Source: a virus
Virus record (IMG/VR): IMGVR_UViG_3300029319_000400
Location: 1-26,976 of that record
Reading direction: 5' to 3' (one strand)
DNA length: 26,976 nt
The position numbers and the translations under genes are program-made. Within the stretch, counting starts at the first letter, position 1; each line of letters begins with the position of its first letter. The notes beneath the pieces are model-generated. The model searched no databases and was not told where the DNA came from. It saw nothing but the letters and a program-made list of their open reading frames with translations. This document shows positions 3,569 through 5,710 of the stretch, one piece after another.

Positions 3569-3932
3569 AGTGTCGATTAGATGCCTTTTCCTCTGCAATT
3601 TTACGACATATTTCACTTTGTTTGGACCGTGATCCGCCGATCTGGTGTGGGTATAGTCCGCAGATGTTAGCCTCCATGTCTACATACATTAGCTTTACAC
3701 CCAGTTTACGTTGCGTGTCTGTTAGCATCCGAGAAATGATAGATCCATTGTCCCGTCGTGCAACCTTCTTAACATCAAACAACAACACCTCACCATCAGG
3801 ATTGATGGCTATTAGGTCAACTGGTCCTTGCTCAAGAAACGGAGAGTAAACAAAGCAGCCCTGACTGAACAACCAGTTCGCAGCCAGAAGTTCGCATCGC
3901 TTGCCGTCACTATTTTTAGTAGCTGGTCGCAT
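3483..3932 (-). CDS. PD-(D/E)XK-fold endonuclease / resolvase-like protein
   Basis: A 149-residue protein on the minus strand within an otherwise plus-strand early block. The restriction-endonuclease-like core is clear: E14 in the first helix (GKRCELLAANWLFSQG), D39 in GPVDLIAI, then D53 and K55 in VLLFDVKK, which gives E...D...DxK. Family members are single-chain nucleases such as Holliday-junction resolvases and recombination nucleases; the specificity cannot be read here. The start ATG at 3932 has GAAGGG upstream, somewhat far away. The C-terminal 28 codons are antisense to the end of the SNF2 gene, so the two are convergent and overlap. A helicase beside a nuclease suggests joint DNA processing, but the opposed orientation means separate control. 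Confidence 0.75.
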   Translation of the reverse strand: MRPATKNSDGKRCELLAANWLFSQGCFVYSPFLEQGPVDLIAINPDGEVLLFDVKKVARRDNGSIISRMLTDTQRKLGVKLMYVDMEANICGLYPHQIGGSRSKQSEICRKIAEEKASNRHFNGGKVPTIDELVHPESSRTNQSCSEGS

Positions 3933-4004
3933 TTTTTAGTTGACCCTTCTATTTGTTGTGATGTAGGGTGTGACCTTATCAGGATTTATAGAAAGGCACA
4001 ACAG

Positions 4005-4178
4005 GTGGATACAAAAAAATGGAAGTCGGTGGCAATCACTTGGGAAATGCATGAGCTTCTAGTGAAAATGGCAGAGCAAGCTGATCGTCCTGTCAGTAGA
4101 CAACTGACACATATTATTAAGCATGCTTGGCAGGCTCGGCATTTTGACGGTGATGTTGAGAATCATGATAATAAATAG
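4005..4178 (+). CDS. ribbon-helix-helix (Arc/CopG-like) DNA-binding protein
   Basis: A 57-residue protein starting at GTG 4005, with AAAGG 8 bases upstream. The frame is open back to 3828, but that part is antisense to the nuclease gene. The core fits a ribbon-helix-helix dimer: strand WKSVAIT, helix A WEMHELLVKMAEQADRP, turn, helix B SRQLTHIIKHAWQAR. RHH proteins bind operators as dimers through the strand pair, here expected to use residues in KKWKSVAIT. An inverted repeat overlapping a promoter begins only 11 bases after its stop, so it is the obvious candidate regulator of the replication operon and perhaps of itself. That link is inference. Confidence 0.7.
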   Translation: MDTKKWKSVAITWEMHELLVKMAEQADRPVSRQLTHIIKHAWQARHFDGDVENHDNK

Positions 4179-4188
4179 TAGTTTAGTT

Positions 4189-4220
4189 ACGGTGTACATT
4201 TTGGGGTTGCAGTACACTGT
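4189..4220. promoter_or_regulatory. inverted-repeat operator candidate
   Basis: The arms ACGGTGTAC (4189-4197) and GTACACTGT (4212-4220) match as an inverted repeat at 8 of 9 positions, with a 14-base T- and G-rich centre. The right arm lies in the spacer between the -35 and -10 elements described separately, so a protein bound here would block polymerase. The neighbouring RHH protein is the natural candidate ligand. The other reading, an RNA hairpin, is less likely because the repeat is upstream of the predicted transcript start. Confidence 0.55.
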
Positions 4221-4235
4221 TGGAATATGTATAAC
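4207..4235 (+). promoter_or_regulatory. sigma70-type promoter of the replication operon
   Basis: TTGCAG at 4207-4212 and TATAAC at 4230-4235 are separated by exactly 17 bases and match the bacterial -35 and -10 consensus at 4/6 and 5/6 positions. Transcription would begin near 4241-4243. The element lies in one of the few non-coding stretches of the window, directly ahead of the replication genes. It indicates use of host RNA polymerase; no phage RNA polymerase gene or promoter family is seen here. Confidence 0.6.
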
Positions 4236-4242
4236 CCCGTTT

Positions 4243-4283
4243 CCGTCTGGTCAGATTTGAAGCACCTCGGTCTGACCGGGCGG
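4243..4283 (+). promoter_or_regulatory. 5'-terminal leader hairpin of the replication transcript
   Basis: The arms CCGTCTGGTCAGA (4243-4255) and TCTGACCGGGCGG (4271-4283) pair over 13 positions, eleven Watson-Crick and two G-U, around a 15-base loop. The predicted transcript start falls at or within two bases of the first arm, so the mRNA would begin with this hairpin. 5' stem-loops of this kind are known to protect mRNAs from 5'-end-dependent decay, and some leaders bind regulatory proteins. The GGAGG ribosome site lies 42 bases after the hairpin and stays free. The 52 bases between the hairpin and the ATG hold no other convincing structure. Confidence 0.55.
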
Positions 4284-4335
4284 ACCTAGAGCCGAAGGGC
4301 GTAAACTTTAGAACGATTATACATGGAGGTATGTG

Positions 4336-4902
4336 ATGAGCGATGTGTTTTCGCTAATAGAAGAAGAGGTCGATGCTAAAAAGTTCGACAGTGTTGATGA
4401 GGGCAAAGGTTCTCGTCTATCAAGTCTGGTGCGAGAGTCACTCCACCTAGACGACAAAATCTCTGAGGCTGAGAAATACCTCAAAGATTTAAAAGCTCAG
4501 AAGAAAAAGGTAAGCATGCAAGACATCCCCGAGTTGATGCGGGAGATGGACATGGACAGTGTTACCGTGGGTGGTAACAAGGTGTCTGTCCGTCAGGTCG
4601 TTCATGCTCGGATCGATGAGAACAATCGTGACCAAGCCTTTGAGTGGCTACGCTCAATAGGCGAGGGCGATATTATCAAACATGATGTGACTGTGTCTTT
4701 CAACACTGGTCAGGATAACCTGGCTGGTTCTGTTGTCGAAGGTCTGCGCCAAGAGTATGGCTTGGACCCCGCACAGAAAACGCATGTACACCCACAGACT
4801 TTGAAGGCGTGGGTTCGCAATCGGATTGAGTCTGGTCAAGACATTGACTTCGACACATTCGGTGTATTTGTAGGACATGAAACGAAAATTACGAGGACGT
4901 AG
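4336..4902 (+). CDS. conserved-type phage replication-operon protein with N-terminal coiled coil
   Basis: A 188-residue protein starting at ATG 4336 with GGAGG six bases upstream; GTG 4333 is a poorer option. Residues 1-70 are charged and helical, with a likely coiled coil (SEAEKYLKDLKAQKKKVSMQ). Then come DIPELMREMDMDSVTVGGNK, a basic strand region, and a C-terminal part with the pattern HPQTLKAWVRNRIESG and FGVFVGHETKI. I have the impression of a family often found next to SSB-like genes in podovirus-like genomes, but cannot name it with certainty. It is the first gene of the operon after the promoter, which suggests a role in replication or recombination. Confidence 0.7.
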   Translation: MSDVFSLIEEEVDAKKFDSVDEGKGSRLSSLVRESLHLDDKISEAEKYLKDLKAQKKKVSMQDIPELMREMDMDSVTVGGNKVSVRQVVHARIDENNRDQAFEWLRSIGEGDIIKHDVTVSFNTGQDNLAGSVVEGLRQEYGLDPAQKTHVHPQTLKAWVRNRIESGQDIDFDTFGVFVGHETKITRT

Positions 4903-4906
4903 AAAG

Positions 4907-5710
4907 ATGGCTAGTAGTACAGCAGTAGCGCAAAAGGCGGAGTCGCTACCCGCAAATGTTATGGATGATCTGTTTGCAAACGCAGGTCAGGGTATGGAAA
5001 ACATAGGTGTTGAGGATATGCAGATTCCGTTTATGCGGATTTTGCAGCCACTGTCTCCTCAGTTAATTAAGACTGACCCGAAGTTTATTAAGGGTGCGTC
5101 GGCTGGGGATATTTTTAATACTGTAACGGGGCAGTATTGGGATGCTGACGAGGGCGTGTCTATCATTCCTTGTGCCTATGAGGTCAAGCTCTTGGAGTTC
5201 CAACTGCGTGAGTCTGGTGGAGGTTTCTTGGGCGAGATCGATGCCAATAGCCCTGATGTAAGTCAGGCCCAGCGTGTCGGGGCACAGGAAATGTTGCCAA
5301 ACGGTAACGAGCTTGTCCGGTGTGCGCAGTTTCTTATCGTTGCCGTCGGGGCCGATGGGATACCGCAGCAGATGATTCTTGATATGAAAAAGACTCAGAT
5401 GAAAGTTGCGAAACAGTGGAATACTCGTCGCGCTGGCATGAAGATTATGCACCCTGAAAAGGGTCTGTTTACTCCACCCATGTGGGCAACTGTTTGGAAT
5501 ATTAAGACAGTGCAGGAGAGTAACGATAAGGGTTCTTGGTTTAATTACACTATCTCTCCCCTTGGTATGGATGCGGTAAGTCAAGACGCTATCAAGGAGG
5601 CCAAGGGAATCTACGATAAGTTCCGTAAGGGGGATATAAAAACCTCCGCTGGAACTGCCGAGGAGATGACCTCTGCCAATCCTAGCGACGGAGACGAAAT
5701 ACCATTCTAA
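4907..5710 (+). CDS. putative single-stranded DNA-binding protein
   Basis: A 267-residue protein. ATG 4907 is chosen because GAGG lies 10 bases upstream and the previous stop is just before it; ATG 4877 would add ten basic residues but has no usable ribosome site. The protein is mixed alpha/beta (QIPFMRILQPLSPQL, GASAGDIFNTVTGQYWD, VRCAQFLIVAVGADG, MWATVWNIKTVQ), followed by a low-complexity linker and the acidic tip SDGDEIPF. This tail copies the architecture of bacterial SSB, where the last residues DDDIPF dock replication and repair enzymes. The DNA-binding role is inferred from the tail and the position between replication genes; no clear OB-fold motif can be read by eye. Confidence 0.6.
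   Translation: MASSTAVAQKAESLPANVMDDLFANAGQGMENIGVEDMQIPFMRILQPLSPQLIKTDPKFIKGASAGDIFNTVTGQYWDADEGVSIIPCAYEVKLLEFQLRESGGGFLGEIDANSPDVSQAQRVGAQEMLPNGNELVRCAQFLIVAVGADGIPQQMILDMKKTQMKVAKQWNTRRAGMKIMHPEKGLFTPPMWATVWNIKTVQESNDKGSWFNYTISPLGMDAVSQDAIKEAKGIYDKFRKGDIKTSAGTAEEMTSANPSDGDEIPF

Follow-up and report, generated by a model that had tools for sequence, protein, structure and literature searches.

Comparison of related leader sequences shows that a stretch of about 20 nt, just before the replication genes of an IMG/VR virus, is a real conserved RNA element (the core) whose stem pairing is under selection. The analysis covered viral record IMGVR_UViG_3300029319_000400, the whole stretch of 26,976 bases being referred to here as the window. 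Its early genes encode an SNF2-type helicase, a divergent protein on the minus strand and an RHH protein, followed by a replication operon in the order gp33 (PF23984), gp34 (PF23977), AEP-type primase, UvrD helicase and family A DNA polymerase. The region before gp33 would comprise a promoter and a structured 5′ leader RNA for this operon, in which the core may be a gene-32-like translational operator worked by gp34, a reading to which we give slightly less than an even chance. The features concerned, with their positions in the window, are the following:

4005–4178, plus strand: RHH gene, 57 aa, GTG start; RHH_5/Arc/MatP-like at the family level
4189–4197, unstranded: left arm of the operator dyad, ACGGTGTAC, recognised as an inverted repeat and in relatives
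4207–4212, plus strand: −35 box TTGCAG, at an equivalent position in relatives
4212–4220, unstranded: right arm of the operator dyad, GTACACTGT, between the −35 and −10 boxes, with one mismatch in the window
4230–4235, plus strand: −10 box TATAAC; relatives show TA-A-C/TATCAC types at this position
4241–4243, plus strand: predicted transcription start, deduced from the −10 box
4242–4284, plus strand: 5′-terminal hairpin H1, arms 4242–4255 and 4271–4284; pairing kept, optional among relatives
4290–4301, plus strand: core hairpin AGCC-GAAG-GGCG, in all 92 leaders, with strong covariation; stem pairs 4291–4300, 4292–4299 and 4293–4298, loop 4294–4297, outer A4290 and G4301 unpaired in the window
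4303–4308, plus strand: invariant tail AAACUU, of which CUU (4306–4308) can pair with AAG of the loop (4295–4297)
4325–4329, plus strand: Shine-Dalgarno sequence GGAGG, read in the window sequence
4336–4902, plus strand: gp33 (PF23984), ATG start, the same in relatives
4907–5710, plus strand: gp34 (PF23977), probable single-stranded-DNA-binding protein, second gene after the leader

The leader sample consisted of 92 distinct upstream sequences drawn from gp34 and gp33 protein searches of IMG/VR, the leaders being picked by protein homology to avoid selection by the motif itself. Many close relatives were retrieved from IMG/VR with gp34, the RHH protein and gp33. No near DNA relatives were present among the isolated phages of the collection searched, and short leader queries against isolated phages returned weak matches alone, probably due to chance. 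A start of gp34 at the in-frame upstream ATG at 4877 is less likely because of the stops found there in relatives. A search of the window for tRNA genes gave none. Elsewhere in the window, a DUF6378 protein (PF19905; 8896–9213) matches PHROG families labelled phosphofructokinase, a label that looks doubtful since the protein has only 105 residues.

The core (4290–4308) lies just outside the interval covered by the preliminary description of this DNA (4189–4283) and reads NNCC-GAAG-GGNN followed by nnAAACUU. It was present in 92 of the 92 leaders, 89 of them exact to the search pattern and three as variants, and was always 35–45 nt upstream of the gp33 start codon; AAACUU follows the hairpin at a fixed distance and is fixed in 91 leaders. 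The third stem pair is C-G in 48 leaders, G-C in 34 and A-U in 10, so that it is paired in all 92, and in leader L302 the closing pair has become U-A with the loop kept. Among the 56 distinct sequences, 97.3% of the stem cells were paired and the covariation score was 0.522, compared with 0.121 in shuffles; both pairing and covariation lay above all 500 shuffles and collapsed when the partners were slid. As relatedness inflates covariation counts, the gp33 tree matters here, and on it pair 3 changed at least eight times and pair 4 at least 11 times. Among the matches listed by a pattern scan, each contig had a single core site, which in nearly all cases immediately preceded gp33. By covariance model, the core of the window scored 30.6 bits (E 1.3e-4), the window being within the model's own alignment.

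The loop AAG and the tail CUU could pair in 56 of the 56 sequences, and together they probably form a small H-type pseudoknot, as judged from the sequence; both sides are invariant, and as its pairs never vary the pseudoknot is beyond proof by comparison. PreQ1-I riboswitches consist of a very small hairpin with an A-rich tail that forms an H-type pseudoknot just before the Shine-Dalgarno sequence, and the core, also a very small hairpin with an A-rich tail, can form the same kind of fold. The core differs from them in having replication genes downstream and in lacking an Rfam match: with the Rfam 15 covariance models, none was obtained at E values up to 10 for the window region and up to 5 for seven relatives. 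When bacterial and archaeal genomes (257 Gb) were searched for the core pattern plus AGGAG at one spacing, two exact matches turned up, in unrelated organisms, and were taken as chance. By word search, reading and covariance model, the leader was not found before gp33/gp34 in PB1, MTx, R5C, Pan1 and Pluto, nor in Carpasina, Sonora, DSL-LC04, ct3Et533 and HTVC023P. A covariance-model match in L084 (20 bits, E 0.046) was also taken as chance, the stem being missing. Downstream of the core, the Shine-Dalgarno GGAG lies in the loop of a predicted 6-bp hairpin, AUACAU-GGAG-GUAUGU (4319–4334), and many relatives carry GUACA-GGAGAU-UGUAC at this place. The ribosome-binding site may thus be either exposed or masked by a second hairpin that is specific to lineages.

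The product of gp34 is probably a single-stranded-DNA-binding protein (SSB), as indicated by its C-terminus and its modelled fold. Across distant homologues the C-terminus is acidic, D/E-D/E-I/V-PF, which is the tip of bacterial SSBs; it is present in homologues from the window as far as R5C and HTVC023P and is weaker in PB1 and MTx. The best matches of the model (mean pLDDT 74) among solved structures were phiC31 RDF, RB69/T4 gp32, BRCA2-DSS1 and PRD1 P12 (Z 4.0–7.5), the top one being a phage recombination directionality factor and RB69/T4 gp32 and PRD1 P12 scoring Z 6.7 and 4.0, respectively; all these scores are under 8 and below the level decisive alone. Annotated phage SSBs in BFVD were matched at E 7e-4 and 3e-3, and no PDB entry was matched by Foldseek below E 0.001. 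The predicted structure of gp33 was of low confidence, and no function was drawn from it.

According to the proposed mechanism, excess gp34 would bind the folded core, probably through the AAG:CUU pseudoknot. From there it would extend along the A/U-rich sequence and cover the ribosome-binding site, so that gp33 and the closely spaced gp34 would no longer be translated. Single-stranded DNA would then draw gp34 away and end the repression. The core lies anywhere from about 5 to 90 nt from the predicted transcription start but always 35–45 nt from the start codon; its position thus follows the start codon rather than the promoter, which points to translation and not to transcription. A UUAAA/UAAA-like word is found between the fold and the ribosome-binding site in 85 of the 92 leaders. 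The leader tail has an A/U content of 66%, compared with 57% for the first part of gp33, and is only about 59% unpaired in predicted ensembles. As gp33 stands ahead of gp34, control of the latter would rely on coupling between the closely spaced genes.

In T4, repression of the gp32 mRNA by its own product begins with nucleation of the protein on a 5′ pseudoknot, from which it spreads across UUAAA-rich sequence as far as the ribosome-binding site (PMC535899, PMC3014915). The leader described here resembles the T4/RB69 gene 32 operator in its 5′ folded RNA followed by A/U-rich, UUAAA-like words into the ribosome-binding site, in the probable SSB gene within the regulated operon, and in being missing from some relatives: RB49, of the T4 group, has no gene 32 leader operator (PMC3014915), and PB1-like phages and HTVC023P carry gp34 homologues without the leader element. 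In contrast, the fold is of about 20 nt instead of about 28, has another sequence and is closer to the start codon, the SSB candidate comes after gp33, and the pseudoknot is deduced from sequence and the repression a prediction. The operator of T4 gene 43, through which the DNA polymerase represses itself, also has a hairpin, some 40 nt upstream of the start codon, and sequence running to the ribosome-binding site, and it too controls a replication gene (PMC3014915). The likeness to this operator is one of layout; here gp33 and gp34 come first and the family A DNA polymerase gene lies about 5 kb downstream of the leader.

Upstream of the core, the promoter that had been described, with TTGCAG and TATAAC 17 nt apart, is present, and a promoter was found at the same place in about 60 of the 92 leaders, the −10 box of the best match ending 11–13 nt before the conserved core (9 nt in two). 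A sigma70 scan of the window left the TTGCAG/TATAAC promoter unlisted and found 22 sites, with 22.4 expected by chance; on the window alone it does not reach significance, and its position is supported by the relatives. The inverted repeat reported over it was also borne out. In the window, ACGGTGTAC and GTACACTGT are complementary at 8 of 9 bases with a spacer of 14 nt, and five other distinct leaders carry GTACACCGT as the right arm, which yields a perfect 9/9 dyad. When the perfect dyad of the relatives, and not the window's own copy, was used as a 32-mer query with up to three mismatches, it occurred once in the window and in none of 100 shuffles. The segment TTACGGTGTACATTTYGGGGTTGCAGTACACYGTTKGAATATGTATAACCCC is nearly identical across six distinct leaders (the window, L001, L025, L205, L208 and L211), several of which stand apart on the gp33 tree. 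The view that a conserved palindrome overlaps the promoter is supported. In most of the remaining leaders, a promoter of the TTGACA type occupies the corresponding position, and its palindrome, which often covers the −10 box, is a different one. Palindromes that are diverse yet symmetric suggest exchangeable DNA operators, and in the proposed model the promoter dyad would be a separate, lineage-specific DNA operator for some repressor.

The 5′-terminal hairpin H1 folds at −27.3 kcal/mol in the window (z −5.5). Its 11-bp common stem is unbroken in the window, L001, L205, L208 and L211, in which pair 6 is U-G, U-A or C-G and the loops, of 3 to 17 nt, are unrelated in sequence. A hairpin at the 5′ end of the transcript had been proposed, and the five leaders agree with it, their stem pairs being kept through compensatory change and changes that break pairing not being seen. 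In the other lineages folded, hairpins at this place have unrelated sequences and begin 1–2 nt after the predicted start. An H1-like hairpin is absent in about 70 of the 92 leaders, L025 and L101 have the same operator and promoter without H1, and at least six gains or losses were counted on the gp33 tree with 22 leaders assigned. The hairpin cannot therefore be upheld as a necessary half of a switch. H1 is real but optional, which fits a 5′-end stabiliser better than an essential switch part, and where present it most likely protects the mRNA 5′ end; mRNA-stabilising stem-loops of the ompA type have a stable stem that starts within a few nt of the 5′ end. In the clade of leaders L002, L007, L011, L014 and L016, the 5′ hairpin has a short form and a long form, the latter carrying a structured insert of about 50 nt, and the promoter and the core are unchanged between them.

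The RHH gene is located where the preliminary description had placed it. The assignment has weak support when the single protein is searched (Pfam RHH_5, E 0.18) and is sound for the family, in which the strand-helix-helix signature was found, 14 of 20 members matched RHH_5 (best 6e-8) and a PDB search returned Arc/Mnt/MatP chains (best E 0.0017). The family of the 57-residue protein aligns with Arc, Mnt, AvtR and MatP, as expected of RHH (CopG/Arc/MatP-like) regulators, but unlike these the protein does not follow operator palindromes. An RHH gene lies at most 2.5 kb upstream of the leader at 105 of 106 testable sites, five further sites standing outside the 106 because they had no upstream sequence or were due to chance. 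In the window the gene has its own TTGACC-type promoter region (3930–4005), lying between it and the divergent minus-strand gene and common to many relatives, from which transcription read-through would also reach the replication operon; no shared motif upstream of the RHH gene was found beyond this promoter and the start of the divergent gene. An extra open stretch with cysteine-rich (CPHC-like) codons lies between the RHH gene and the operator in L001 (3867–4200) and L025 (3897–4230); it is present in L001 and L025/L026 and missing in the window. An RHH homologue (E 1e-7) is also encoded at a different place, without the leader element, in pelagiphage HTVC023P (gp13; L305, 8538–8660).

In the preliminary description, these parts formed a single switch, with the RHH protein repressing the promoter from the dyad and the 5′ hairpin governing mRNA decay. 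The conservation of the dyad and of the pairing in the 5′ hairpin agrees with this, as does an RHH gene that neighbours the promoter in nearly all relatives, but the operators do not track the protein. The RHH recognition strand, [KR][WFY][KR][ST][VI][AS][VI], hardly varies among relatives, and by inspection their promoter palindromes differ completely; conversely, one operator is common to the window, L025 and L205, whose RHH proteins differ outside the recognition strand. This evidence, although indirect, argues against the RHH protein as the reader of the dyad. The open stretch between gene and operator in L001 and L025, and the same promoter without the 5′ hairpin in L025 and L101, are also at odds with the single switch. 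With operators that vary, a near-constant RHH strand and a 5′ hairpin absent in most relatives, one switch for both initiation and decay appears improbable.

The nature of the core itself leaves two further explanations. It could be a DNA element, either a protein-binding site or a replication origin, since its arms are an inverted repeat in DNA too and it adjoins replication genes, but the three pair types at stem position 3, always paired, the invariant and asymmetric loop, the one-sided tail and a position set relative to the start codon rather than the promoter make this very improbable. It is a serious possibility, if short of even, that a factor other than gp34 (gp33, the RHH protein, a host RNA-binding protein or the ribosome) binds the core as a structured leader RNA, or that the core acts alone as a translation enhancer or 5′ stabiliser. 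All the RNA evidence on the core fits any ligand, the gp33 and RHH genes are linked to the core in nearly all loci, and in about 60 leaders the core itself is within 3–7 nt of the predicted 5′ end. RHH homologues without the leader element in HTVC023P and L084 argue, however, against the RHH protein as the ligand, and nothing else points to a particular alternative.

The wider claim that goes with the gp34 operator, namely, that the leader found across a large group of marine phages is a second, independently evolved case in which a phage SSB regulates the operon that encodes it, here by way of a minimal, roughly 20-nt pseudoknot, is tentative, and we regard it as rather unlikely. Such a leader before a probable SSB operon in many marine phages would offer a second, simpler system, in which a short RNA could be studied with a single small protein. 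Regardless of what binds it, the core represents an uncatalogued RNA family, in a short intergenic gap of the kind that annotation skips.
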